Assembly (NCBI GenBank): GCA_028819845.1
Contig: JAPPKS010000012.1
Span: 1-64,000, forward strand
Length of the DNA stretch: 64,000 nucleotides
Origin: Candidatus Poribacteria bacterium
Lineage (GTDB): Bacteria > Poribacteria > WGA-4E > PCPOR2b
Direction: 5' to 3'
Shown: in pieces, positions 3,105 to 64,000 of the stretch
Numbering within the stretch: the stretch's first letter is position 1
How the letters are laid out: every line of letters starts with the position of its first letter
Made by a program: the position numbers and the translations under genes
Notes under the pieces: generated by a model
The model's database searches: none
Told to the model about the DNA's origin: nothing
Seen by the model: the letters and a program-made list of their open reading frames with translations, nothing else

Positions 3105-3122
3105 TGTGTATATGTCTTCTTC

Positions 3123-46419: not shown

Positions 46420-49311
46420 ATGCAACAATCCAAGTCAATAAATATTGTGTTATTAGTCGTGATTTTGACGGTAGCTGGGCTGATGGCGCCGGTACAATCC
46501 GCCTCCCAGACCATGACCGATTCAGATACTCAATCCAGTGGCGAATTCGACGATTCGGACATGGATGCCGCGTCCGATACGGGCGATGCCATGGAGGACA
46601 TGACCGATCAGTCCTCTGAAATCATTGAACTGGAACAGGTATCCGTCACAGCGTCCCGGCGCAGGGAAAAGGTGCTTGAAGCGCCGGCGTCAGTTGCCGT
46701 GGTGGGGTCTACCCAAATCAAAGACCGAGTCACGTCAACCCTGTCCGAGCACGTAAAGTCCGTGCGCGGCGTAGACCTTGCTAAGACAGGATTGGGAGCG
46801 TCGCATGTCGTTGTGCGCGGCTTCAATAACGTCTTCTCAGGGACGCTGCTGTCGCTCGTTGACAACCGGATTGCCCGCGTTCCTTCGCTGCGTTTGAACG
46901 CTTACACGCTCATCCCGACATCGAACGAGGATATTGAACAGATTGAAGTCGTATCGGGTCCTGGCGCTGCGCTCTACGGCCCTAACAGCGCCAACGGCGT
47001 CATGCACATCCTCACGAAATCTCCTTTCACCTCGCAAGGAACCACCGTCAGCATCGGCGGCGGCGAGCGGAGCGTGCTCCTGGGATCGCTTCGGCACGCC
47101 GGCGTAATCAATGAAAATATCGGGTACAAGTTTTCTGCCAACACATTCCGCGGTGATGACTGGGAAGAGGGACGCGCAGAAGCTGATTTAAACGGCGTAA
47201 AACCGCCCGAGTTTGATACTTACAGAGCTGGCGGTGACTTTCGCGTTGACTACCGCCCGACTAGCGACCTAACGACGATAGTTGCAAGTGGATTCACACA
47301 AACAACGGGATTGGAAATGACCGGCATCGGCGCCGGGCAAGCCAAGAACTGGACTTACGGCTATGTCCAGGGCCGCCTAATCTACAAAGACCTTTTCGCG
47401 CAGGCCTTTTGGAACCGCAGCGACGCCGGGGATACCTACACGCTGCGGGCAGGTGACCCAATTATCGACAATTCCGATTTGTATGTTGGGCAGATACAAC
47501 ACGGATACAGCTTGAGTGAGAATCAACGGTTCACGTATGGCTTGGATTTATTGCTGACCCGCCCAGATACTGAAGGCTCAATCAACGGACGCAACGAGGA
47601 CAATGACAACGTCAACGAGGTTGGCGCTTACTTGCAGTCGGAAACAAAAATTCTTCCCGAGTTAAAGTTCATCGCCGCCGCGAGGGTTGATGACCACAAC
47701 CACCTCAATGACCTAGTGCTTTCGCCGCGTGCAGCACTCGCCCTTCAGCCAAACGATAACCACAACATCAGACTCACTTACAACCGCGCCTTCAGCACAC
47801 CGTCTTCCTCGAACCTGTTCCTTGATGTCGTTTCGATTCCTGACGCGTTCGGTATTGGCGCGGCGTTCCAGCCCGCATTGGGATTCAATCCAGCAATCGA
47901 TATTCGTGCACAGGGGGTGAGCAGCGAAACCGGATTTACCTTCAAGAGAAGCGCGGATGGTCGGCCAGAATTCCGTTCACCGTTCTCAGCGGTTGCAAAT
48001 CTTCCTGCCGACCAATACATTCCGCTTGACGACCCAGTCTTTACCAACGTTATGTGGAATGTCGGCAGATCCGCTATCTTGAGTGAAGCGCAGCCGCAGT
48101 TTGAAGCCGGCTTAAAGCAAGCGTTTACTCCTGAAGCACTGCCGCAATTACTGCAAAGCCAGTCGCCGGCGCAGATTGAGGGCATCGTGTCAACGCTGCC
48201 GGCAGAAGTGACGCAGCTTTTACCGCCAGCATTTCAACAGCCGGGCGCCATTGCGGCGCTGCCGCCCGAAATACTTCAACCGCTAATTCCACAAATTCTC
48301 GGATCTCTACCCGCCCCAGTGGTTGAAGGACTCACTGCTTCTCTCATCGCCGACCTGTCAGCCGGTTTTGCGAACGCCGTACCGGCACAGGTTTCAGGCG
48401 TGAAAAACTCCCTGCTTGCGCTAAATCCGGAAACAGAGGAATTTGAGCCGATTGCGGACGTAAACGACGTTGACCCCATTACTCCAACGATTACACAAAC
48501 ATATGAAATGGGTTACAAAGGGATTCTCATGGATAAAATCGCGTTCTCCGCGGACGTGTATCACACAAGAATTAACGATTTCATCGGTCCCTTGGTGGTT
48601 GAAACGCCCAACGTCTTCTTGGACGCAAATACTTTAGGCGCTTCCATTGCCCAACAACTCACCGAAACATTGAGCGATCCGAAGAACGCATTGCTCAACC
48701 AGGCGCTGCTCGCATTCGACTCGCCGGCGCAAGGTGGAAATGGGGATGGTTCAGCCGTCGATGAGTTGACGAAGTTGTTCGTCGCCGGCACCGATAACAA
48801 CGGCGCCGCGTTCATTCCCTTTGGCACCGTGTCCCCCGATCAGGCGGGTGATCCGAACGCAGTGATGCTTACCTATCGTAACTACGGCGACATCTCGCTT
48901 AACGGAGCCGACCTAAGCCTGACTTACTATCTCAACCATAGTCTGAGCGTGACCGGGAATTACTCGTTCGTCAGCAAGGACCTTTTTGAGACCGATATTC
49001 GCAACATCGCCCTAAACGCGCCAAAGAATAAGTTCGGCGCGAACGTCCAATACCTCAACCCCAATTTAGGTCTTGGCGCTGGCGTCGCGATGCGCTATGT
49101 CGCTGGATTCCCGATGAACTCCGGTGTCTATATCGGTGACGTTGAGTCGTATTACACCATTGATGTTAGTGCGGGTTACGATTTACCGTTCGGCCCCAAA
49201 CCGCGCCTGTCGCTAACCGTACAAAACCTTCTGGACAAAATGCACCAGCAATTTGTCGGTGCCCCGTACATTGGCCGTCTGTCAATGTTGCGCTTGACAC
49301 AGACATTTTAA
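46420..49311 (+). CDS. TonB-dependent outer-membrane receptor
   Basis: 963 residues; AAGGAG 8 nt before ATG 46420. Signal peptide IVLLVVILTVAGLMAPVQSA is followed by an acidic low-complexity linker (residues about 30-65). Then comes a TonB box/plug start ELEQVSVTASRRREKVLEAP and the plug domain with IEVVSGPGAALYGPNSANGV. The 22-strand barrel includes NLDN-type features and ends LTVQNLLDKMHQQFVG and RLSMLRLTQTF with the terminal Phe. Between strands, residues about 565-660 form an unusual Pro/Gln/Leu-rich helical insertion (LPQLLQSQSPAQIEGIVSTL, LPPEILQPLIPQILGSLP). Such receptors import siderophores, vitamin B12, glycans or metals with TonB energy. The ligand is not deducible. It has its own promoter. 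Confidence 0.93.
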   Translation: MQQSKSINIVLLVVILTVAGLMAPVQSASQTMTDSDTQSSGEFDDSDMDAASDTGDAMEDMTDQSSEIIELEQVSVTASRRREKVLEAPASVAVVGSTQIKDRVTSTLSEHVKSVRGVDLAKTGLGASHVVVRGFNNVFSGTLLSLVDNRIARVPSLRLNAYTLIPTSNEDIEQIEVVSGPGAALYGPNSANGVMHILTKSPFTSQGTTVSIGGGERSVLLGSLRHAGVINENIGYKFSANTFRGDDWEEGRAEADLNGVKPPEFDTYRAGGDFRVDYRPTSDLTTIVASGFTQTTGLEMTGIGAGQAKNWTYGYVQGRLIYKDLFAQAFWNRSDAGDTYTLRAGDPIIDNSDLYVGQIQHGYSLSENQRFTYGLDLLLTRPDTEGSINGRNEDNDNVNEVGAYLQSETKILPELKFIAAARVDDHNHLNDLVLSPRAALALQPNDNHNIRLTYNRAFSTPSSSNLFLDVVSIPDAFGIGAAFQPALGFNPAIDIRAQGVSSETGFTFKRSADGRPEFRSPFSAVANLPADQYIPLDDPVFTNVMWNVGRSAILSEAQPQFEAGLKQAFTPEALPQLLQSQSPAQIEGIVSTLPAEVTQLLPPAFQQPGAIAALPPEILQPLIPQILGSLPAPVVEGLTASLIADLSAGFANAVPAQVSGVKNSLLALNPETEEFEPIADVNDVDPITPTITQTYEMGYKGILMDKIAFSADVYHTRINDFIGPLVVETPNVFLDANTLGASIAQQLTETLSDPKNALLNQALLAFDSPAQGGNGDGSAVDELTKLFVAGTDNNGAAFIPFGTVSPDQAGDPNAVMLTYRNYGDISLNGADLSLTYYLNHSLSVTGNYSFVSKDLFETDIRNIALNAPKNKFGANVQYLNPNLGLGAGVAMRYVAGFPMNSGVYIGDVESYYTIDVSAGYDLPFGPKPRLSLTVQNLLDKMHQQFVGAPYIGRLSMLRLTQTF

Positions 49312-49730: not shown

Positions 49731-52700
49731 TTGAAAAAATTTGTCCTGATTGCACTCGCCACCCTCATCCTTTCACAAGTCAACACTACGCGAAGTACCA
49801 CTGACCACGCCTCGCACGAGCCCATACAATCTGCGCTACAGTCAAAGCGTTTCAATGATGCGGTACACCTCATTGATACCGCATTGACGGCATCAGAGAA
49901 TCAACCTGACTATCTGCTCTATCTTAAGGGGCTTGCGCTGTTCCATAATGGGGATTACCGGAACGCAATTGGGACGTGCGGCCAGGTCATACAGGATTAC
50001 CCTGATTCCACTTGGTTGAGGAAAGCGGCGTTTCTTCAAGCCAAGAGTCATCTCAAACTGAAGGAATTTAAGCAGGCTGAAGCAATCTACAGCAAAGAGG
50101 TTAGTCGGCTTCTCTCGTCCAGACGCAAATCGGAAATAGCCCAAATTTACATTCAGCTTGCCGAAACCTTCGCGCAAAAACCCAATGACGCAGATCTCGA
50201 TGCCCCCCAGCCGAACTACCAGAAAGCGTACGAACTGTATCAAAAGGTATTGACGCTAGAGATTGACGCTAACCTACGCGAAACGGCCGCCTTCCAACTC
50301 GGACGCATGATGCAGTTGCAGGAGAATTACGCACAAGCCGTTGTTGACTACGAAGCCTACCTTACACAATTTGATCCCAATTTTCAGCGCCCGGCCGCTT
50401 TGCCAATGCTTTCAAAAAAGAGCAAAACGCTCGAAGGCCGACGCTTTCATGCCCGTTACCATCTTGCGGAATGCCAGATAGCGTTGAATCAGCACCTACA
50501 GGCGCGATTGACGCTTGAGGACATGTTAATATTGGCTGATGTTGGAAGCAAGGCACTATTACCTCTCGCCAAAGACGCTCGCTTCCTGTTGACCCGGACC
50601 TACCGTTTCCCGGCGCCCAACTCCAACGAGGAGTTGGAATTAGGCGTACAATCCGCCAGAAGGTTTCAGGAGCAGTTTCCTCGTGACTTGCGCTCAATGA
50701 CGCTAGCGCACGAAATCGCTGAAGCATATCGGGCGCGGCATCGAAGCGAGGAAGCGCTCGCCGCCTACCAAGATGTTATCGACAAAAAGAGCTTCAAAGT
50801 AACCCAAAAGAAGCGGCAAATTTCAAATCTCAACAACCAAGATTACCATTACCTCCGTACTTCCGCCGCATTTCAAATCGGGAACATTCTGTTCGAACAG
50901 CGAAAATATAACAATGCAATTGAAGCGTGGAATAGATACATTCGAGAATTTCCCAACGGACCTCAATGGACCGACGCCCAACAGGGAATTGTTAACGCCG
51001 AATTCCAAATTGGTGTAACGCTCCTCGCCGCGGAAAAACACGAAGAAGCCGTGAATGCGTTCGATGCCTTCCAAGCAAAACACCCGCTGGATGAACGAGT
51101 GCGGCAGATAATGTTTATTTATGGCCAAATTCACGCTCACAAATCCGAGCATCAGCTTGCAATTGCCGAGTGGGAAAAGCTCGTGAGAAAATTCCCGAAC
51201 ACTGAAGAATCATCGCTAGCGCTCTTTCGCATCGGGCAGACCTACGAAATTAAATTGGGAGATCTGGAAAATGCGCTAGAATCTTACCGAAGGCTAACCT
51301 GGGGAAGCTGGCACCCTCATGCGCAAGAGGTAATTCGCCAGATGACGGAAAAGCATCTCCAACTTGTCACACCGCGCACCTTCCGCACGAATGAACCGCC
51401 TTATGTACACGTGTCGCTTCGCAATATTGAATCCCTCACGGTGAATCTTTACAAGCTCAATCTTGAAGCCTACTGGCGCAAGATGCACGAAGTGAAAGGC
51501 GTGGAGGATCTCGATCTTGGGTTGATTGAGCCGAACAAAACTTGGCAATACAATGTGCCTGAATACGAGAAGCACAAAAGCTTTGAGTGCGAAATCAACA
51601 TCCCGTTTGCCGGACCCGGCGTTTACGCGGTACAACTCGGCGATGAGTCGCTCGAATCAACCACGCTCCTCATTCGCAGCGATATCGAGACTATCACCAA
51701 GACATCCCGCCGCGAGGTACTTGTATTCGTGCAAAATATGCTGAACGGAGAAGTGGTCGCCGATGCTAAGGTGCTTGTAAGCGACGGCTCAAGCGTAATT
51801 TTCGAAGGACGCACTGGAGCGGACGGTGTACTCCATGCAACTGAACGCGGCATTTTGGATTACGCGTCAGTAGAGAACCAACTTAAGGATGCGAGTCGGG
51901 TGGCGGCATTCGTCGTCAAGGGTGGACACGCCGCCGCAGACGGGTTAGACATTTCAGGGCTTGGCTTCAGCAAAGGCTTGACGCCGCGCGGCTATATCTA
52001 CACCGACCGGCCCGCATACCGACCGGGAGAAAGCGTTTCATTGCGCGGCATAATCCGCGATGTTAGCGATGGCGCCTACGTGGTACCGGACGGCGCACCA
52101 TTTAACGTCTCGGTGATCGATGCTCGGGGACGCCAAATTCATAAAGAGGCGGTCAAACTTTCACAGTTTGGCGGGTTTGATACGCAGTTGCAGCTTGACA
52201 ATGCCGCCTCTGTCGGCGAATACCGCATCCGTGTGGTACAATTCGACCCAGATACAAAGCTAGATATCCCAAGCCACATATTCACAGGAAACTTCCAAGT
52301 TCAGCGATTCCAACTCGAAAAGGTACAGTTGCTGCTCGATTTTCCGCGCCGCGTCTACTTTCGCGGTGAACAGGTGGATGCTACCTTTACGGCACGATAC
52401 TATTACGGCCAGCCGGTGAAGAACGCAAAAATTCAATACAAACTTCCCGATGGCCGGAGCTATACTGAAACTGCTGATAATCGGGGAATACTGAAGGTCA
52501 ATTTCGATACGGCATCTATGCAACCTGGTAAACCGCTTCATTTCAGCGGGACGGTTCCGGGTGAGAATGTTAGCGTTAAAACCTCCGTGGCGCTTGCACA
52601 TCTCGGATATTCAATTTCGGTGCAACCTGACGCTAAACTTGTGCTCTCTGGTGAACCTTTCCACGTAACATTTCACACAAAAGGAGCTGATGGGCGTCCG

Positions 52701-55700
52701 GTCGGCGAGAAATTAACCGTCAAGGTAGTGAAAAAGCAGAGCAGCGGTCCCATTTCGCCGGTACTGTCGCAGGTTCCTTGGATTAATAAGGACGGCGTGT
52801 TCCGTTCCGCCGAGATTATCATCCAAGAACACAGCCTGCGTACAGATTCCCAGACTGGCGCCGGTACAATTCAGTTGACCTTAGACACAGGCGGTGTTTT
52901 TAAAGTCCGCGCCAGTGGTACCGATCGGTTCGGTCAGGCTGTTGTAGGCTCAAGTCGTGTCACCATCTCCGACGACGGCGATAAAATGAAACTCCGCATT
53001 TTCGCCGAACGCACAAAAACAAAGGTAGGTGACTCTGAAAAGCTGCGCATTCACTCCCGATTGAAACCCGTTCACACGCTTATCACGTACGAAGGTGAAG
53101 TCATTATTGGATATGAAGTACGCTTGCTGAAACCGGGAAATAACCGGCTTCAGTTCACAATCGGGCACCAACACTTCCCGGATTTTTACATAGGGGTTGC
53201 GGCAATTGAAGATCGAAGCCTACACACCGCAAGGAAACGCTTTACCGTCGAAAGGCAACTAAATTTATCCGTGACTTGGATGGATAGCAACCCGATTCAC
53301 GGCTCCAACCAGACGCTTCCCGGCTACATGCCCGGTGCGGCCGCGAAAATCCAAGTCAGCGCTAACAATCAACTTGGTCAGCCGGTCAAGGCTGAATTTT
53401 CACTAGCGCTCGTGGACGAAGCCCTGTTCGCCATATACAAGGATGGCGTGATGAATATTAACGATTTCTTCCAGAAAGGGCTGCGACGCCATGCAGCCAT
53501 GCGCACTGCTTCAAGCTGTGCCTTCAAATACATGCCAACTACACGGCCTGTAGTTCAGGAGGTATTGGCTGAGGAACGACGGCTCTTAATTGAAGCAGAG
53601 GCGCTTAGTCTTGAGGACATCGATTCTGGGAAAACGGCAAAAAGGGTATTTTCAAGGAAGCGGCGTGTGCAACCATCTGTCCGTAAGCCGGTAATTCGCG
53701 AAATGCGCCCCAGAGTGCCTACGTATGATGAACCGAAGATACGAGAAGAATCTACCTATGCCGGTTTTTGGATTGGAACCGTCATCACAGACGATGCGGG
53801 TTTGGCAACGGTAACCGTCCCGATGCCGGAAAAGACGACGAAATGGCGGCTGACTGCGCGTGGATCCACCGTTGATACACTCGTTGGACAAGTCAGTGTG
53901 AACGCCGTGACGCGGAAAGATTTATTCCTCGACGTGCGAACACCCTCATTTGTTACAGAACGCGATGAGCTACGATTAGGCGTCCGACTTCATAACACAA
54001 CCGATTTCAAAGGAGACGCCGACGTTCAAATCACGATGTCAGTTGACGAATCGCAGCCGGTGTACCGTGACCACAAAAGAACTACGATTACTGCCAAAGA
54101 CTCGGCAGAGATAATCTTCGACAGGTTCACTATCCCCTCGGGAAAACTGCACACCGGTGCACATCCAAGCCAACTCACCATTGAGGCAACGGCAACTGCG
54201 GGCGCATTGAGCGATGGAATTCGGCGCACAATCCCGGTTCGACCGTGGGGTCTGGAATACACCGATACGCAGAGCGGAACGGCAGCTGGCAACAGAACTG
54301 TTTACGTGCAACTCCCGTCCGATTTGCGCTACACGCGGAAGGGACTTAGGGTCAATATTAGTCCGAGTGTCTCGCGGCTAATTTATGAACTCGCACTCGA
54401 CCACTATCCCCGACCATACCAGATTGGGTCCGTAAGACGACCACTCATCATTCCCAGTGATTCTGGCAGCGACCTACTTGCGGTGGCGTCCGCACTCGAC
54501 TATCAAAAAAAGGTGGGCGGCAATCCTATTGACAGCCACAGGTTGCTGACTCGGTCGATGACGCTCGTCAACCGACTCGTAACGACACAAAACGAAGATG
54601 GCGGGTGGAGTCTGGTTCAAGGCGCGGCAGGGAGCAACGACCGTGTAACTGCCCGCAACCTTTGGGCGTTGACAACGACACGCGGCAGCGGCGTGGCAGT
54701 TGACGACCAAACGATTGCCAACGCTGTACATTTCCTCAAAACAGCTTTCGCCCAGACCGATAAAAACGGCGAAGACACAAAGGCGTCCATTCTCCATGCC
54801 CTCTCTACGCTAGGTGACGTGGATTTCGCACACGCATACCGCCTGTATCGGCGCCGGAATCAGTTGAGTAATGCTTCGTTGGCGTACGCTGCGCTGGTCT
54901 TTGTTAATCTCAGCCGTTTGGAGATTGCGGGCGAGATACTTGAAATATTGGAACGCCGCGGCCTGTTGCCCGATGAAGAGAGAAACTCGACGATTGTCAG
55001 CTCGCACACAGACCACGGTCAAGTGGAGACTGTCGCGTTGGCGTTGCTAGGGATGCAAGCAGTCCGCCCAAATTCGCTTTTGGTTAAGGCCGCTATCGAA
55101 TTCCTAGTTGGTCAGCGCCGTTACTACGGCTATTCGCCGTACGCCGCTAAAGGTGTTGTCGTCGCCGCACTAGCAACCTACTATCAGGCGGCGCAACATG
55201 CGGCAGATGACTACAGACTCATCTTGCTCGTGAACGGCGAACCGCTCGAAACAATTGCAGTTCAGAGGGATTCCGTTAACCGTCTAATTCACGTGCCAAC
55301 CGCGCAAATTCTCGACGGACAGAACCGCGTCGAGATGCAAATCGAAGGGCAGGGGACTTATACGTACCTTGTTACAATCAGCGGGTTTTCTCCAGACGTG
55401 CCGAACTGGGTCGGCGGTGAACCAGAGACTAACGGCAGTTTGAAAAACACACGAATTAACCGCCGCTACCTTCACCCACCGCTTGAATATCGGGGCAAAC
55501 CCATCGGCGCGCGGAGTACGACAGGGATTACTCAATTGGAAGCCGGCGCAAAGATGGAAGTCTCTGTCAACATCGTGTATGGCATTGGCGCACTCACGCC
55601 CGACCACCATTCTAAGGGCAGGTACGTTGTTGTAGATGAATTTTTCCCCGCTGGGACAACGGTCGTTGACGGTACAGTTAATGGCGATTTTCAACACTAC

Positions 55701-57590
55701 GATGTCGGAGACGGTGTAATCCGTTTCTACTATGGGCCCCGCGCTACCTTTAGGGACTACAGCTATCAGCTAGTCAGCTATGCGCCCGGCGATTACCGCG
55801 TCCCCCCAACTGTAATGCGCGGCGTTCAAAGCCGCGATAATATGCGGCTGGGACCGGCGGCTTCGCTTACCGTGCTAGGACCAGGCGAAAAATCCAAAGA
55901 CACTTATGAGATGAATAACGCAGAAAACTTTGCACTAGGGAAAGCCTATTTCGACGACGAGAAGTATGGCGATGCACGTCCATTGCTCGAAACACTATCC
56001 AAAGACAGTCCAAATTTCAACGCAAAAGAGACCGTGAGGATGCTTTTGTGGATTTACACGACAGAAGAACACTACGGTGCGAGGCATGTCGTCCAAGCAT
56101 TTGAGGGTTCTCGCGACCACTATCCAGATCTCGAAATTCTTTTTGACAGGATTCAGGTAGTCAGCTCGGCATACCGTGATATTGGAGAATTTGAACGCGC
56201 AACCATGGTTCATCGCTCCGCAATCGAATCCAGCTTTGCTCGGGACGCGAATGTTAGCGCGGCTCTTCAGGACCAAGGTGAATTCTTGCGTTCGATCGAA
56301 TTCATTGAAGATTTGTGGCGTGAATACCCCGATACTCCTACGACCATTCCCGCCTACTTCGCAATCGCACAGTCTCTCTATGCGAGTAAAGATGCCGCGG
56401 ATGGTAGAGCAAAACCAGCGCCCAAAATTCAAACCCTTAATCGAACGGTGGAGATTCTGTCTCAATTCTTGACGCTGTACCCGACGAATCCGCTAGCCGA
56501 CGACGCCGCGTTTTCGCTCGCGAACGCATATATGGACCTGGAGGATTTTCAGAATGTAGTGCAACATTGCCGCTTGAATCAGGCGTACCGCCCGGACAGC
56601 GTGCTGTTGAGCAGTTTTCAATATATGGAAGCGCTAGGGCTCTTTGCACTGAACGAATATGTAAAAGCCATTAAAGCAGCGACGCTTGTGGCATCAAGTG
56701 AAAGCGAAGACCGTGATTTTGCGCGGTACATCGTCGGGCAAATTTACCATGCGCAGGGCAAACCGGCACAAGCGATTGACTGGTACAGCCGTGTCAGGCA
56801 AATCTACCCCGATGCGGATGAATCCATCGCTCATTTTGAAGCGCAGCAGATTACCATCCCCGAAGTCACAATTAAGCGCCCGAATACTGATGTGATTGTA
56901 GCGATAAATCATCGAAACATCAAGTCGGCAGAAATTCAGGTGTACCGTATTGATCTGATGAATCTCTATCTGCGCGAGAAAAATCTCAGCCGTGTAACTC
57001 AAGTACATTTAGCGGGCATAGAACCGGAGGTCAGCCAAACCGTTGAGTTGAGTGACGGGAAAAATTACAAAGAGGCAACCCGCGACATCTCTCTACCAAT
57101 TGCAGAAGATGGGGCATACCTCGTCATCTGCCGCGGCGGCAATCTGTCCGCGAGCGGTTTGATTTTGATTACGCCGTTGGAGATTGAGGTACAGGAGGGC
57201 GCCGTGAGCGGCCGTGTACGCGTCGTTGTGCGGGACGCGCTTTCAGGCAAATATCAATCGAGCGTCCATGTCAAAGCGGTAGGTTCTGCAGGCGGGCGAT
57301 TTATCTCAGGCGAAACAGATTTCCGCGGCATTTTCATCGCCGACGGTTTACACGGCACGACTACTGTCATCGCCCGCCAAGGCACGAACCGTTATGCGTT
57401 CCATCGCGGCAATTTGTGGCTTGGTTCCCCACCGTCTGAATCAGAATCGCTCCCCAGCCCAAGGGCAGCAACGGACTATCGTCAGCATCTTGATCGCAAG
57501 AATCAGGAAATCCAAGCCGCAAACCTGGAAGGGTTTGACCGTCTGCGACGAGCACCCCGCAACGGAGTCCAGCTCCAGCACGCCTATTAA
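49731..57590 (+). CDS. Giant TPR / alpha-2-macroglobulin-like envelope protein with duplicated ends
   Basis: 2619 residues from TTG 49731 (AAGGA 10 nt upstream), with signal peptide FVLIALATLILSQVN. Residues about 30-545 are TPR/tetratricopeptide units. Residues 555-655 hold a macroglobulin-like beta domain (PYVHVSLRNIESLTVNLYKL), and near 660 lies an Ig-like piece (VLVFVQNMLNGEVVADAKVL). The alpha-2-macroglobulin core runs from YIYTDRPAYRPGESVSLRG (about 757) through FWIGTVITDDAGLATVTVPM (about 1341) to a toroid with NEDGGWSLV (about 1621). The thioester C-x-E-Q is missing: YPRPYQIGSVRRPL stands in its place. From about 2060 to the end TPR, macroglobulin-like (DVIVAINHRNIKSAEIQVYR) and Ig-like parts occur again. 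Probably periplasmic; protease trapping by thioester is excluded, structural or sensing roles are possible. Confidence 0.85.
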   Translation: MKKFVLIALATLILSQVNTTRSTTDHASHEPIQSALQSKRFNDAVHLIDTALTASENQPDYLLYLKGLALFHNGDYRNAIGTCGQVIQDYPDSTWLRKAAFLQAKSHLKLKEFKQAEAIYSKEVSRLLSSRRKSEIAQIYIQLAETFAQKPNDADLDAPQPNYQKAYELYQKVLTLEIDANLRETAAFQLGRMMQLQENYAQAVVDYEAYLTQFDPNFQRPAALPMLSKKSKTLEGRRFHARYHLAECQIALNQHLQARLTLEDMLILADVGSKALLPLAKDARFLLTRTYRFPAPNSNEELELGVQSARRFQEQFPRDLRSMTLAHEIAEAYRARHRSEEALAAYQDVIDKKSFKVTQKKRQISNLNNQDYHYLRTSAAFQIGNILFEQRKYNNAIEAWNRYIREFPNGPQWTDAQQGIVNAEFQIGVTLLAAEKHEEAVNAFDAFQAKHPLDERVRQIMFIYGQIHAHKSEHQLAIAEWEKLVRKFPNTEESSLALFRIGQTYEIKLGDLENALESYRRLTWGSWHPHAQEVIRQMTEKHLQLVTPRTFRTNEPPYVHVSLRNIESLTVNLYKLNLEAYWRKMHEVKGVEDLDLGLIEPNKTWQYNVPEYEKHKSFECEINIPFAGPGVYAVQLGDESLESTTLLIRSDIETITKTSRREVLVFVQNMLNGEVVADAKVLVSDGSSVIFEGRTGADGVLHATERGILDYASVENQLKDASRVAAFVVKGGHAAADGLDISGLGFSKGLTPRGYIYTDRPAYRPGESVSLRGIIRDVSDGAYVVPDGAPFNVSVIDARGRQIHKEAVKLSQFGGFDTQLQLDNAASVGEYRIRVVQFDPDTKLDIPSHIFTGNFQVQRFQLEKVQLLLDFPRRVYFRGEQVDATFTARYYYGQPVKNAKIQYKLPDGRSYTETADNRGILKVNFDTASMQPGKPLHFSGTVPGENVSVKTSVALAHLGYSISVQPDAKLVLSGEPFHVTFHTKGADGRPVGEKLTVKVVKKQSSGPISPVLSQVPWINKDGVFRSAEIIIQEHSLRTDSQTGAGTIQLTLDTGGVFKVRASGTDRFGQAVVGSSRVTISDDGDKMKLRIFAERTKTKVGDSEKLRIHSRLKPVHTLITYEGEVIIGYEVRLLKPGNNRLQFTIGHQHFPDFYIGVAAIEDRSLHTARKRFTVERQLNLSVTWMDSNPIHGSNQTLPGYMPGAAAKIQVSANNQLGQPVKAEFSLALVDEALFAIYKDGVMNINDFFQKGLRRHAAMRTASSCAFKYMPTTRPVVQEVLAEERRLLIEAEALSLEDIDSGKTAKRVFSRKRRVQPSVRKPVIREMRPRVPTYDEPKIREESTYAGFWIGTVITDDAGLATVTVPMPEKTTKWRLTARGSTVDTLVGQVSVNAVTRKDLFLDVRTPSFVTERDELRLGVRLHNTTDFKGDADVQITMSVDESQPVYRDHKRTTITAKDSAEIIFDRFTIPSGKLHTGAHPSQLTIEATATAGALSDGIRRTIPVRPWGLEYTDTQSGTAAGNRTVYVQLPSDLRYTRKGLRVNISPSVSRLIYELALDHYPRPYQIGSVRRPLIIPSDSGSDLLAVASALDYQKKVGGNPIDSHRLLTRSMTLVNRLVTTQNEDGGWSLVQGAAGSNDRVTARNLWALTTTRGSGVAVDDQTIANAVHFLKTAFAQTDKNGEDTKASILHALSTLGDVDFAHAYRLYRRRNQLSNASLAYAALVFVNLSRLEIAGEILEILERRGLLPDEERNSTIVSSHTDHGQVETVALALLGMQAVRPNSLLVKAAIEFLVGQRRYYGYSPYAAKGVVVAALATYYQAAQHAADDYRLILLVNGEPLETIAVQRDSVNRLIHVPTAQILDGQNRVEMQIEGQGTYTYLVTISGFSPDVPNWVGGEPETNGSLKNTRINRRYLHPPLEYRGKPIGARSTTGITQLEAGAKMEVSVNIVYGIGALTPDHHSKGRYVVVDEFFPAGTTVVDGTVNGDFQHYDVGDGVIRFYYGPRATFRDYSYQLVSYAPGDYRVPPTVMRGVQSRDNMRLGPAASLTVLGPGEKSKDTYEMNNAENFALGKAYFDDEKYGDARPLLETLSKDSPNFNAKETVRMLLWIYTTEEHYGARHVVQAFEGSRDHYPDLEILFDRIQVVSSAYRDIGEFERATMVHRSAIESSFARDANVSAALQDQGEFLRSIEFIEDLWREYPDTPTTIPAYFAIAQSLYASKDAADGRAKPAPKIQTLNRTVEILSQFLTLYPTNPLADDAAFSLANAYMDLEDFQNVVQHCRLNQAYRPDSVLLSSFQYMEALGLFALNEYVKAIKAATLVASSESEDRDFARYIVGQIYHAQGKPAQAIDWYSRVRQIYPDADESIAHFEAQQITIPEVTIKRPNTDVIVAINHRNIKSAEIQVYRIDLMNLYLREKNLSRVTQVHLAGIEPEVSQTVELSDGKNYKEATRDISLPIAEDGAYLVICRGGNLSASGLILITPLEIEVQEGAVSGRVRVVVRDALSGKYQSSVHVKAVGSAGGRFISGETDFRGIFIADGLHGTTTVIARQGTNRYAFHRGNLWLGSPPSESESLPSPRAATDYRQHLDRKNQEIQAANLEGFDRLRRAPRNGVQLQHAY

Positions 57591-57802
57591 GCGCGGCCAT
57601 GTGGTATACCCCAACCGTCCCACTTCGTTCACCACCGCTTGTTATTTACCCTTCTCTCGCTTACCAATTCTAAACCATTATGGTGTTCTTCCGGCAAAAA
57701 AAATAGTCTTAATGGGAACATCCGTTGAGAATTCGCGTCTTAATAATCAAATGTGTATTTCCAGACAACCGGCAATCTAACGCTTAACACCGGGAGATTT
57801 CA

Positions 57803-60652
57803 GTGGCGCAAAGTGATGCCGAACTTATAAGGCGTACGTTGGACGGCGATGATAACGCATTCGGCTTTTTGGTGGACAAATACAAGGGCGCCGTGCACGC
57901 CCTCGCTTACCGAAAAATCGGTGACTTTCACATTGCTGAAGACATTACGCAAGACACTTTCCTCAAGGCATTCCAGAAACTTTCTACGCTGAAGCGTCAC
58001 GAAAACTTTTCGGGATGGTTATATGTGATTGCGGCGCGGTGCTGCATCTCCTGGCTTCGAGAAAATCAGCACCCAATGCAATCTCTTGAGCAGGTAGGTG
58101 CGGCACAGGTCGAAGCATCCGCAGAACGGGAGTATTCGGCCGATCGGGTGCGTAAGCAACTGCAGGAAGCGCTGGAAAACCTACCTGAAAGCGACCGAAC
58201 CGTTCTGACGCTGCACTACCTTGGCGGGATGACCTACGAAGAGGTAAGCCGTTTCATCGGTGCTTCAACCGGCGCCGTCAAGAACCGTCTCTATCGGGCA
58301 CGACACCATCTGAAGGAGGAGCTAATTAAAATGATACATCAGACTTGGGGGACTCTCCAACTTCCACCAACTTTCACGCAGCAGTTGGCTGAAAAAATCT
58401 ACCGTCTCAATCCAGCTCCAGCACCGGTCAGCAAACCGCAGGCGCCATGGATCACTGCGGTAACGCTTGGCGTGGCGGCACTTTTTGTTGTGGCTGGCAA
58501 GTTATTCACATCTGAATTCCAGCAGCCCTATTCGCTCAATCCATCTACATCAGTAAAATTAATCGAATTGACAGAGGCACCAATAGTTGAGACACCTTTG
58601 CCGAAACCGTCATTTGCCAATCACTATGATGGAGATGGCAATCCTGTTATGGCTTTCGCAGCCGGCGGCGATACGAAACAGGTAGATAAACTGCGAGGTA
58701 GCATTTCTGGGCACGTCATTTACGCCGGTACTGGGAAACCTGCCGCTGACGTACCCATTCGTGCTGCAGGAATCCAGCCGGGTATCGGAGATGCGCACGC
58801 GCACACGGGTGCAGATGGAACGTATGTTTTGGAGAATGTTCCCGTTGGACCATACGTTGTCATGATCGGCGACACCTGGGAATGGCATGAAACCTTTGAT
58901 TGGCGGGCGCCGGCTAATGAAGGCATCCATGTCGAACCAGACAGCATCTCGACGGGTGTTGATTTTTCATTAACGCCGGGAGGATTCGTTGAAGGCAAGA
59001 TAACCGACGGCGACACAGGCGAACCTGTCGCGGGCGTACAGATCCAGGTTTATGATGCCGCACACCCAAACAGTCAAGGCGTGGGGCATCGGCTTAACAC
59101 CGACAACCAAGGGCGTTATCGTTTTCGTGTAACGCCCGGAAGAGTCCTTGTTGTAGCCAACACAACCAACAACGACGCACCGTATTACATACCATTCCCT
59201 GGCGGTGAATTTTACGGGGAAGTCGCAGAGAGTGAAACGCTTTCTGATATCGACTTTGAATGTCTACGTGGCTATAGCATACACGGCACGGTGGTTACAG
59301 CGGACGAGCAGCCGATCGCGGGCGCGTCCGTCCGGGCAAATATCATTCCAATCAAGGGTTTAGTCGAATTGCCGAATCACGCTGCGACAGATGCACAAGG
59401 AAGATTCACATTGAAAGGAATACCAGTAAACGAAGAAACTGAACAGTTAGTAATCATTGCAGAACATGATAATCTCCGCGGCAGAGCGAGCTGGTCCAAG
59501 GAACAAGTTAGTGCCGTCGAAATTACGCTCGTACCCCGACCTACCGCTACCATTGTCGGTCAAGTAATTGACGTGCAAGGAAGTCCAATTTCCCATGCCG
59601 GAATTGGGTTGAGTTGGGAGGAGGGCTTCGCAGGCACAGCCACTACTTCACCCAATTCACCAGTTGTAGTGACAAGCCCAGAGGGTAATTTCACTGTCGG
59701 TCCAACATTCTCGTTCGGTAAATCGTGGTTGGAAGTCGGTGGAAAATATCAGATTCATGCCACGGCGGCGGAGTATGGAAGAACTTCTTCAGAATGGTTT
59801 ACTCTGCAAGAAGGCGAACACACAATTCCGGCGCTTGTTTTGCATAGAGCAGAACACTTCATTGCCGGGCAAGTTGCGGACTGGAAGGGTCAGCCTGTCA
59901 GTGGCGCAACCGTTTTCGCAGAAGGCAGTCGCACAGCAGTAAACGGCGTCTCTGACCACGAAGGGAGATTTAGTCTGAGTAATATTGCTGATAGTCGAAT
60001 TAAAGTGTATGCATTTCATCAAGGTCCCGACTGTTCTGACACAGATGCCGAATTTGATGCAAATCGGGAGGATGTGCGCGTTATATTGGCACCGAATAAA
60101 CCCATGATTAGTGATGTTGCAGGCAATAGTATCCGATTCGACCCTTTTCCGTACCCACTTGAAGGTAAGCAGGCACCCGAACTGAAAATCTATAGCCGGC
60201 ACAGTTGGTTGAACTCCGAACCCATTGCGCTGAGTTCACTGCGCGGCAAAATTGCTGTCTTAAATTTTTGGTCGACCTATGTCAACCAAGAAAGTTGCGA
60301 CCCTTGGCTTCCAACGCTAAATCGCATCCATGAGAAATATAGCGATAAGGGAGTAATTGTAATCGGTGTACATACGTCCGTGCATCAATTGGAGGGACAC
60401 CCTGACATTCAAGAAATTGAGAAATCGGTTATCCAGTGGCGGATAAAATACCCGATTGCTATTGATTCGGCAGGAGCTAACGCTAATGTTGACGTGAATG
60501 ACTGGCCGAGTCAATTCGGCGCAACGTTTAACGACTACCTCGTACGGTCCCTTCCAACAATCCTATTCGTCGACAGGGCGGGCAAAGTCAGAACACTTTT
60601 TCTCATCGGAGGTACCCTCGACGAGAAAGTGAACGCGTTATTGAACGAGTAA
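57803..60652 (+). CDS. Membrane-anchored ECF sigma factor fused to carboxypeptidase-regulatory repeats and a thioredoxin-like domain
   Basis: 949 residues from GTG 57803 (GGGAG 7 nt upstream). Residues 1-95 are sigma region 2 (ITQDTFLKAFQKLSTLKRHE), about 130-190 region 4 (LPESDRTVLTLHYLGGMTYE...GAVKNRLYRARHHLKEEL). One membrane helix lies near residue 216 (WITAVTLGVAALFVVAGKLF). Outside the cell there are about five carboxypeptidase-regulatory-like beta domains (SISGHVIYAGTGKPAADVPI, GKITDGDTGEPVAGVQIQVY, SIHGTVVTADEQPIAGASVR and others, 295-740). The end (795-949) is a redoxin/TlpA fold with KIAVLNFWSTYVNQESCDPW, where the C-x-x-C is reduced to one Cys. No anti-sigma gene follows. Likely a single-protein signalling device that senses the envelope. 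Confidence 0.88.
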   Translation: MAQSDAELIRRTLDGDDNAFGFLVDKYKGAVHALAYRKIGDFHIAEDITQDTFLKAFQKLSTLKRHENFSGWLYVIAARCCISWLRENQHPMQSLEQVGAAQVEASAEREYSADRVRKQLQEALENLPESDRTVLTLHYLGGMTYEEVSRFIGASTGAVKNRLYRARHHLKEELIKMIHQTWGTLQLPPTFTQQLAEKIYRLNPAPAPVSKPQAPWITAVTLGVAALFVVAGKLFTSEFQQPYSLNPSTSVKLIELTEAPIVETPLPKPSFANHYDGDGNPVMAFAAGGDTKQVDKLRGSISGHVIYAGTGKPAADVPIRAAGIQPGIGDAHAHTGADGTYVLENVPVGPYVVMIGDTWEWHETFDWRAPANEGIHVEPDSISTGVDFSLTPGGFVEGKITDGDTGEPVAGVQIQVYDAAHPNSQGVGHRLNTDNQGRYRFRVTPGRVLVVANTTNNDAPYYIPFPGGEFYGEVAESETLSDIDFECLRGYSIHGTVVTADEQPIAGASVRANIIPIKGLVELPNHAATDAQGRFTLKGIPVNEETEQLVIIAEHDNLRGRASWSKEQVSAVEITLVPRPTATIVGQVIDVQGSPISHAGIGLSWEEGFAGTATTSPNSPVVVTSPEGNFTVGPTFSFGKSWLEVGGKYQIHATAAEYGRTSSEWFTLQEGEHTIPALVLHRAEHFIAGQVADWKGQPVSGATVFAEGSRTAVNGVSDHEGRFSLSNIADSRIKVYAFHQGPDCSDTDAEFDANREDVRVILAPNKPMISDVAGNSIRFDPFPYPLEGKQAPELKIYSRHSWLNSEPIALSSLRGKIAVLNFWSTYVNQESCDPWLPTLNRIHEKYSDKGVIVIGVHTSVHQLEGHPDIQEIEKSVIQWRIKYPIAIDSAGANANVDVNDWPSQFGATFNDYLVRSLPTILFVDRAGKVRTLFLIGGTLDEKVNALLNE

Positions 60653-61027: not shown

Positions 61028-61399
61028 TCATAACTGAATCCCAAGTCTTCGACACCGCTTGCGAATCTTTTTGATTGCGCCTCCGACCTGTTTCCCGTTT
61101 CGTGTAACGCCGAAAAGATGTTGACTCACAACTCGCCGCCGAATCCCAAGGATATTGCCAATCTCCTCCTGCGTCTTACCCTCATAAAAGTAGAGTTGGA
61201 CACACCGCGCCTGTTGGGCGGTCAATTCGTTGCCGATAATCTGGCGAATCTGCTGTAAGACCTGCTGCTGTTTGGCGCGATATTCGTTTGTATGTGCATC
61301 GACGAATGGTTGATACCGAAGATAATCTTCTGTGCTGAACTGCTCAAAATACTCTGGTGGAACCGGAACTTCCCAAAAGTCCGGATTGAATTTTGGCAT
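61028..61399 (-). CDS. Small DNA-binding protein with sigma-70 region-4-like HTH
   Basis: 123 residues; AAGGAGA 8 nt before ATG 61399. The first 50 residues are acidic/aromatic (FNPDFWEVPVPPEYFEQF). The second half has LTAQQARCVQLYFYEGKTQE and EIGNILGIRRRVVSQHLFGV, a helix-turn-helix like sigma region 4, followed by a basic end (KKIRKRCRRLGIQL). No region 2 is present, so it is not a full sigma factor; a transcription regulator is likely. It stands alone on the minus strand. Its targets are unknown. Confidence 0.72.
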   Translation of the reverse strand: MPKFNPDFWEVPVPPEYFEQFSTEDYLRYQPFVDAHTNEYRAKQQQVLQQIRQIIGNELTAQQARCVQLYFYEGKTQEEIGNILGIRRRVVSQHLFGVTRNGKQVGGAIKKIRKRCRRLGIQL

Positions 61400-62423: not shown

Positions 62424-64000
62424 ATGTGTTCAAAAATGCCGCCGCCAAAATCCGGCACTGACAATCGCACACCGAAGGAAAAAATTGACGCCATCCACCG
62501 CCCGAAGTGGTGCATTGACACAGACGACGGCAGGCTTTACTGGGACCTAATCTGTGCGGCAATTCGCAACGATGAAAAGACGCTCGCTGAACATCTGGAG
62601 AGAAACCCAGACTGCGCACGCCTTGAGTTCTGGTATACGCCGCCGATTCATTTTGCAGTACGCGAGGGGAATTTGGAGGCAACGCGGCTGTTATGGAATA
62701 CCTATGCCTACGAAGACGTGACCAAGCTCATCGCCATGGCGGACGACCGCGGCCATGCCGTGGTAGCGGAGTTTTTGCGCGGTTCAATCCGAAATGGATT
62801 TGCCGACGCGGATTTCCGCCTTCACAAGGTCGTTCAGACCCGAAATTACGGCGCCGTGGGACGGCTGTTAAGAACTCATCGGGAAACCGCCGAACACCGC
62901 GATTCAAAAGGCAGAACCGCGCTCCACCTGGCGGTCATCTCCGACAACCTGCACGCTGCGCGTTCTCTATTAGCCGCCGGTGTGGAGATTGACTCCGTCG
63001 ATCACTTCGGCTTTCGGCCAGTTCACTACACCTGCTGGAAAAACCAATACTGGGCATGCGTTAAAGGCGGCGCCGCCCTCCTAAATGCCCTGCTCGACAC
63101 TGGCACCGCCGACAGTGTTACGCTCGCGGCAGCCCGCGGAGACCTAAACTCTGTCCGTGCATTCGTCGAGGCGAATGCGGCGGCTGTAAATGACGGTGAG
63201 TCGCTCCAGAAACGGCCCCTATCTGCAGCGGTGGAGCGCGGCCACCGCGAAATCGTGCGTTACCTGCTTGACCGCGGCGCCGATCCGACACTGTCGGAGA
63301 GCCGGCTCTGCCCGCACGGTTCCGCACTCATGACGGCATCGGTAAACGATTATGTAGAGATTGCCCGATGGCTGTTGGACGCTGGCGCCAACCCCAACCA
63401 CGGAATCGACTCGTCGGGAACGCCTGCGACTCGCGCATCGTCAGATGAAATGCGTGGGCTAATGTACGAATACGGCGGGCGCCCCGAAGCCGCCTGGGGC
63501 GTCGCTCAACGCGGTGACCTTGAAACCTTAGCTGTGATTTTGAGTTACTGCGACGATCCTTTCAGGATTACGGAGAGTGAATTTCTTTCGACGCCTTACA
63601 CTGCCATAGTGAGCGGCTGCGGACGCCGCCTCGATAGGGGAGAGTCTACTGCTGGCTGCGAAGCCATGCTGCGCATTTTCTTGCAACGCCAGTTTCCCAT
63701 GCCCAAGGTGCTAACCGAGTGCAAGAGTTACCTGTACCATGTGCCGCACATGACGCGGCAGCTGCTGGAGAACGGACTCGACCCCAACTTGCACGACTGG
63801 CAGCGGCGCACGCCGCTGCACGACCTGTGCGCCGGATTGCGGCACGTCGCGGATTCAGCGCAGTTGGTGCAGATGTTTATCCAACACGGCGCCGATGTCA
63901 ACGCGATTGACGAAGAAGATTTGTCAACCCCGCTTGGCATCGCGGTGCGTGAAGGGAATGCGGCGCTCGTCAAACTGCTACTGGAGAACGGAGCAGACCC
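62424..64000 (+). CDS. Ankyrin-repeat protein (3' end outside the window)
   Basis: Open from ATG 62424 (AGGAG about 10 nt upstream) to the window edge, 525 codons. No signal peptide. Several ankyrin repeats are clear: GRTALHLAVISDNLHAARSL followed by LAAGVEIDSVD, PLSAAVERGHREIVRYLLDR with GADPTLSE, ASVNDYVEIARWLLDAGANP, RTPLHDLCAGLRH, and STPLGIAVREGNAALVKLLL with ENGADP at the edge. Ankyrin repeats bind other proteins; in host-associated bacteria they may act as effectors. No secretion signal is visible and the end is missing, so the role is open. Note the absence of stops over 1.5 kb, which confirms the frame. Confidence 0.88.
   Translation, partial: MCSKMPPPKSGTDNRTPKEKIDAIHRPKWCIDTDDGRLYWDLICAAIRNDEKTLAEHLERNPDCARLEFWYTPPIHFAVREGNLEATRLLWNTYAYEDVTKLIAMADDRGHAVVAEFLRGSIRNGFADADFRLHKVVQTRNYGAVGRLLRTHRETAEHRDSKGRTALHLAVISDNLHAARSLLAAGVEIDSVDHFGFRPVHYTCWKNQYWACVKGGAALLNALLDTGTADSVTLAAARGDLNSVRAFVEANAAAVNDGESLQKRPLSAAVERGHREIVRYLLDRGADPTLSESRLCPHGSALMTASVNDYVEIARWLLDAGANPNHGIDSSGTPATRASSDEMRGLMYEYGGRPEAAWGVAQRGDLETLAVILSYCDDPFRITESEFLSTPYTAIVSGCGRRLDRGESTAGCEAMLRIFLQRQFPMPKVLTECKSYLYHVPHMTRQLLENGLDPNLHDWQRRTPLHDLCAGLRHVADSAQLVQMFIQHGADVNAIDEEDLSTPLGIAVREGNAALVKLLLENGAD

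Follow-up and report, generated by a model that had tools for sequence, protein, structure and literature searches.

A single-chain ECF sigma factor with a predicted membrane anchor and ectodomain, one of a large family of putative receptors in Candidatus Poribacteria

Transmembrane signalling to an ECF sigma factor in bacteria normally needs two proteins. Sigma factors of this type that are themselves tethered to the membrane, or that carry WD40 extensions, are nevertheless already known. IutY of Pseudomonas putida (ECF243), which responds to aerobactin as part of a cell-surface signalling system for iron starvation, is an ECF factor fused to a membrane anti-sigma factor and is freed by Prc and RseP (PMC8999054). 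ECF52 (SCO4117), ECF48 and ECF53 are actinobacterial groups for which proteolytic release has been proposed (PMC5826349, PMC8999054). ECF57 is described as acting through protein interaction and contains WD40-like repeats in its C-terminal extension (PMC8999054), and ECF factors have been found in detergent-soluble fractions of Tuwongella (PMC8567305). In the Poribacteria, 'eukaryote-like repeat proteins' with WD40, LRR and other repeats are abundant, many of them with membrane helices (Kamke et al. 2014, PMC3909097); the text of that paper makes no mention of sigma factors.

The gene described here lies in a window of 64,000 nucleotides (the whole stretch of DNA that was analyzed) from the genome of a sponge-associated member of Candidatus Poribacteria (4.6 Mb, 35 contigs). 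Its features, all on the forward strand, are as follows:

57715–57739, +, putative ECF-type promoter: -35 element GGAAC at 57715–57719 (GGGAAC form), 16 nucleotides after AAC, -10 element CGTC at 57736–57739
57792–57797, +, likely ribosome binding site GGGAGA 5' of the GTG start, read from the sequence
57803–60652, +, transmembrane ECF sigma factor gene: GTG start, 949 amino acids, one uninterrupted open frame
57869–58069, +, sigma region 2, residues 23–89 (Pfam PF04542 Sigma70_r2, 1.6e-14)
58154–58312, +, sigma region 4, residues 118–170 (Pfam PF08281 Sigma70_r4_2, 7.7e-16)
58355–58441, +, conserved, predicted cytoplasmic linker, residues 185–213: motif QLPPxxTxxxxxxIxRLxP...SKPxxPW, 3.20 bits per column in 105 relatives
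58442–58498, +, single membrane helix, residues 214–232, from hydropathy; low-confidence AF2 helix at 217–239
58505–58588, +, conserved juxtamembrane stretch, residues 235–262, predicted to lie directly outside the membrane: FQxPYSL...VELIEAPIV, 3.16 bits per column
58688–60112, +, predicted ectodomain of about five CarboxypepD_reg-like beta-sandwich domains, residues 296–770 (PF13620, five stretches, 1.2e-35)
60164–60649, +, putative C-terminal pseudo-thioredoxin (redoxin/TlpA/DipZ-like), residues 788–949 (PF00578; DipZ 2hyx), with its sole cysteine, Cys832, at 60296–60298

Pfam and hydropathy analyses thus confirmed the composition proposed in the first-pass annotation, in which sigma regions 2 and 4, one membrane helix, about five carboxypeptidase-regulatory-like domains and a redoxin domain share one chain of 949 residues. 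Consistent with an ECF factor, the protein contains sigma regions 2 and 4 but lacks region 3 (Pfam, NCBIfam), and it matches the NCBIfam sigma70-ECF model TIGR02937 (4.6e-26); having the ECF head, the membrane helix and the ectodomain in a single chain, it has the layout of the membrane-tethered ECF class. In an AF2 model the ectodomain is beta-rich, the low confidence of that model (53.5) restricting its use to this beta-rich character.

A frameshift or an assembly join between a sigma gene and the gene of an exported protein, for which the first-pass annotation recommended looking near residue 200, would also produce such a chain, but we consider the chance of this negligible. The ortholog in genome G001, from the same family, is full-length and 59% identical over 964 columns, sigma/membrane junction included, and about ten paralogs in the window's own genome share the layout of sigma domains, helix and long extension. 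The wider search for this architecture, suggested at the same time, returned matches to the head in 85 of the 85 genomes of the phylum searched. Given the end-to-end ortholog and the similarly organized paralogs, an artefact was ruled out. Among the matches listed from a contig scan for the head, the best 79 loci were all from Candidatus Poribacteria; the organism itself is a Poribacterium, and the earlier pointer to the Planctomycetes therefore concerned the wrong phylum.

Like IutY, the Poribacterial protein unites an ECF sigma factor, a membrane segment and a predicted periplasmic part in one chain, with no separate anti-sigma protein (PMC8999054). Its ectodomain, however, consists of CarboxypepD_reg and redoxin domains, and cleavage has been shown for IutY alone; moreover, Pfam gave no match to the FecR-like periplasmic domain expected of ECF243, and the TonB receptor two genes upstream is absent beside the ortholog. 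With ECF52, ECF48 and ECF53 it shares the order of ECF head, membrane segment and extracytoplasmic extension, but while those groups carry a zinc-finger anti-sigma domain, with extensions that reach about 400 residues, the Poribacterial protein has a short, different linker and an extension of about 700 residues. No zinc finger lies between the sigma domains and the membrane helix, Pfam giving neither zf-HC2 nor any other match between residues 175 and 213, and in place of the carbohydrate-binding ectodomain of ECF52 we found CarboxypepD_reg and redoxin domains. What the Poribacterial family has in common with ECF57-type and other Planctomycetes ECF factors is C-terminal beta-propeller repeats and expansion by paralogy, ECF57 having been compared by description only.

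Hydropathy analysis of the 949-residue protein predicted exactly one helix (residues 214–232) and no signal-peptide-like hydrophobic segment at the N-terminus; hence, the helix is most simply read as a type II anchor, which would place the sigma head inside and the ectodomain outside. Mean information per column among 105 heads was 3.52 bits in sigma region 2, 3.54 in sigma region 4, 3.20 in the linker (185–213), 2.89 in the helix, 3.16 in residues 235–262 and 1.71 beyond them, which indicates that the linker and the juxtamembrane stretch are constrained almost as strongly as the sigma domains. Within the linker, AF2 predicts a helix at residues 189–201 with moderate confidence (about 74). The nearest structures to the head model in Foldseek were compact, anti-sigma-bound ECF factors, SigW-RsiW and CnrH-CnrY (rmsd 5.5–7), whereas RNA-polymerase-bound ones lay at an rmsd above 20; the compact model agrees with autoinhibition, although AF2 may favor the compact sigma form, such structures being common in the PDB.

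The gene is, as judged from these comparisons, a member of a large phylum-wide family in which the same predicted switch and anchor are joined to many different putative sensors. Constant in the family is a head comprising sigma regions 2 and 4, the conserved linker, the helix and the conserved juxtamembrane stretch, while the ectodomains beyond that stretch are mostly unrelated among the 105 relatives. These include propellers of the BNR/sortilin, WD40, PD40 or Kelch type, LRR, transglutaminase and C-type lectin domains, and the CarboxypepD_reg and redoxin combination. Among 48 diverse members, 21 had sortilin/BNR-type propeller matches, 13 PD40 and 11 WD40 (these classes overlap); Kelch, LRR with a GHL15-type glycosyl hydrolase, transglutaminase and C-type lectin domains, the last in one paralog, were also found. 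All 1128 pairs of heads from these 48 members were similar, as compared with 318 of the 1128 pairs of ectodomains. A sigma tree built from 100 heads shows about 24 switches of ectodomain class, with at least 11 changes of the BNR class forced by supported branches alone, and the CarboxypepD-redoxin type occurs on two separate head lineages. Therefore, the statement in the first-pass annotation that this composition was not recognised holds for the exact composition but not for the plan of sigma domains, helix and ectodomain, which is that of the whole family.

In two finished chromosomes we counted, by hand, 56 and 30 heads that continue into the helix, many of them in tandem; in one array, about a dozen genes for membrane sigma receptors occupy some 48 kb (G050:C1:1524876-1573133). 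Enzyme-like ectodomains on membrane sigma factors were seen at L098:954-3287 (transglutaminase core) and L105:300-2972 (LRR and GHL15 glycosyl hydrolase-like). Two relatives are headless: L052:6201-8450 (minus strand; C5, in the window's own genome) has linker, helix and ectodomain but no sigma domains, and L133, from about position 3105 (plus strand), has the same three parts, likewise without sigma domains, and retains the family promoter about 85 nucleotides upstream. These may be decoys or decaying genes.

At the C-terminus, residues 788–930 match AhpC-TSA (PF00578) above the gathering score (2.8e-9), and the nearest solved relative is DipZ (2hyx, 2.2e-11). The domain resembles DipZ, TlpA and ResA in sequence and inferred fold but lacks their redox-active CxxC, and so cannot serve as a dithiol oxidoreductase. 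As had been noted from the first reading, it contains a single cysteine instead: the local sequence is STYVNQESC, and Cys832 aligns with the second cysteine of the DipZ motif CINC. CxxC was absent from all ten sigma-fused redoxins, from five genomes, but was retained in nine of nine free-standing redoxins from the same search; it was also missing in three relatives with no sigma head or with the head outside the frame. Only the G001 ortholog shares Cys832, the other aligned fused copies having no cysteine there. Of the two roles that had been suggested for the domain, sensing redox state or binding, the second fits better, since CxxC is always missing in the fused copies and Cys832 is confined to the ortholog; the most fitting reading of the domain is a pseudo-thioredoxin with a ligand or a protein as its binding partner. 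That sigma-fused redoxins consistently lack CxxC clearly illustrates how an enzyme fold can be put to new use as a putative sensor.

GGGAAC and CGTC separated by 16 nucleotides is the textbook form of an ECF promoter. The predicted promoter, with AAC in its -35 and CGT in its -10 element, precedes the sigma factor's own gene, and AAC-16-CGTC is found at the same place 5' of the G001 ortholog. The pattern GGAACATCN{12,14}CGTC has one match in the whole 4.6 Mb window genome, upstream of the sigma gene itself, and in G001 it occurs at the ortholog and at three other places. An ECF-type promoter at this position suggests autoregulation. A related motif, TGYAMCC ... GCGTCAC, is prominent in the largest Poribacterial family, even in upstream regions with divergent flanks. 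In 1.15 Mb of relatives' loci, 61 of 67 promoter-motif sites precede sigma-receptor genes, compared with four sites for the reversed pattern, and the finished genome G050 has 21 motif sites versus four in the control; as the loci were selected for containing sigma-receptor genes, the motifs derive from the very upstream regions in which they are then found, and near-copies raise the counts, these numbers show specificity rather than an unbiased regulon. STAS-domain genes (anti-sigma-antagonist-like) lie 3' of the family promoter motif at two loci, L197 and L136, and are candidate regulon members.

Directly upstream of the sigma gene is a gene for a 2619-residue TPR and alpha-2-macroglobulin-like protein (49731–57590, plus strand), and a TonB-dependent receptor is encoded two genes upstream (46420–49311 of the window). 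Control of these neighbours by the sigma factor, as first proposed, is unsupported: neither gene is found beside the G001 ortholog, the promoter pattern of the sigma gene has a single match in the genome, at the sigma gene, and a relaxed pattern gave 8 matches in the window versus 5.7 expected, which is chance level in what, with a spacer one base short, is a loose test of the neighbours. We therefore rejected this proposal. On the other side, a 123-residue protein having only a sigma region 4-like HTH (PF04545, 6.4e-10), without region 2, is encoded convergently to the sigma receptor gene (61028–61399, minus strand), and an ankyrin-repeat protein adjoins the region (62424–63998, plus strand).

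We consider it reasonably probable that the protein is a single-chain membrane receptor with a sigma output, held inactive, freed by regulated proteolysis and activating its own gene. The ECF head would be kept at the membrane on the cytoplasmic side by the type II signal-anchor helix, while the CarboxypepD_reg and pseudo-thioredoxin ectodomain would sense a ligand or the state of the envelope in the periplasm, through binding rather than redox catalysis. At rest, tethering and the linker that joins region 4 to the helix would jointly block the head from engaging RNA polymerase. A signal would lead to cleavage at the juxtamembrane stretch and then to site-2 (RseP-type) intramembrane cleavage, and the released head would transcribe its own gene from the AAC-16-CGTC promoter, as well as a small regulon. 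The earlier idea that a membrane sigma factor replaces the anti-sigma pair is supported, as no anti-sigma gene adjoins the sigma gene and the chain itself would have to do the pair's job. An RseP-like site-2 protease is encoded in the window genome (604-aa frame), a gene that lends slight support because site-2 proteases are near universal in bacteria. Along with this gene, proteolytic release, also raised in the first-pass annotation, has a precedent in IutY (ECF243) (PMC8999054).

Conformational control would also be compatible with a single helix and a conserved linker, and a dedicated protease gene was not seen beside the sigma gene. An activator of the ToxR or CadC kind, in which the head works while membrane-bound, by conformational change or helix-mediated dimerisation and without proteolysis, is nevertheless unlikely: a sigma factor has to join core RNA polymerase and remain with it until promoter escape, the studied membrane ECF fusions are cleaved (IutY, PMC8999054), and the conserved juxtamembrane stretch outside the membrane suits site-1 cleavage. 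Even less probable is a sensor in which Cys832 reads the periplasmic redox state and signals inward. Although the redoxin fold is clear from Pfam and the DipZ match, and the cysteine is shared with the ortholog, its conservation there alone makes redox sensing doubtful, the distribution of CxxC between fused and free-standing redoxins speaks against it, and other family members bear quite different ectodomains; we thus regard it as unsupported.

We give similarly little credence, or slightly less, to the head being an inactive sigma factor, a decoy at the membrane that ties up RNA polymerase or promoter DNA. The L133 relative, with its family promoter and a membrane part devoid of sigma domains, shows that the membrane part can exist without an output, but the strong conservation of both sigma regions (3.5 bits per column) and the ECF-type promoters ahead of genes of the family argue against a decoy.

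In the literature searched, outside which the main ECF classification papers fall, we found no earlier description of this zinc-free, modular and highly expanded family; its linker without a zinc finger, its modularity and its copy number are apparently new, at least to us. We see about an even chance that the family represents a transmembrane signalling mode of its own, used throughout the phylum Poribacteria, in which each genome has dozens of one-protein receptors that regulate themselves and combine a constant sigma-linker-helix-juxtamembrane cassette with interchangeable ectodomains, and the short zinc-free linker acts as a built-in anti-sigma element. While such signalling normally needs two proteins, here one chain would signal to an ECF output, in dozens of copies per genome and with a constant head bearing different sensors, and the family provides naturally occurring variants with which to study the retention of a sigma factor at the membrane, its release, and the linker residues responsible. 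Part of the Poribacterial repeat-protein inventory (PMC3909097) probably represents the sensor portions of membrane sigma factors, which would recast some of these sponge symbionts' 'eukaryote-like repeat proteins' as sensors in gene control.
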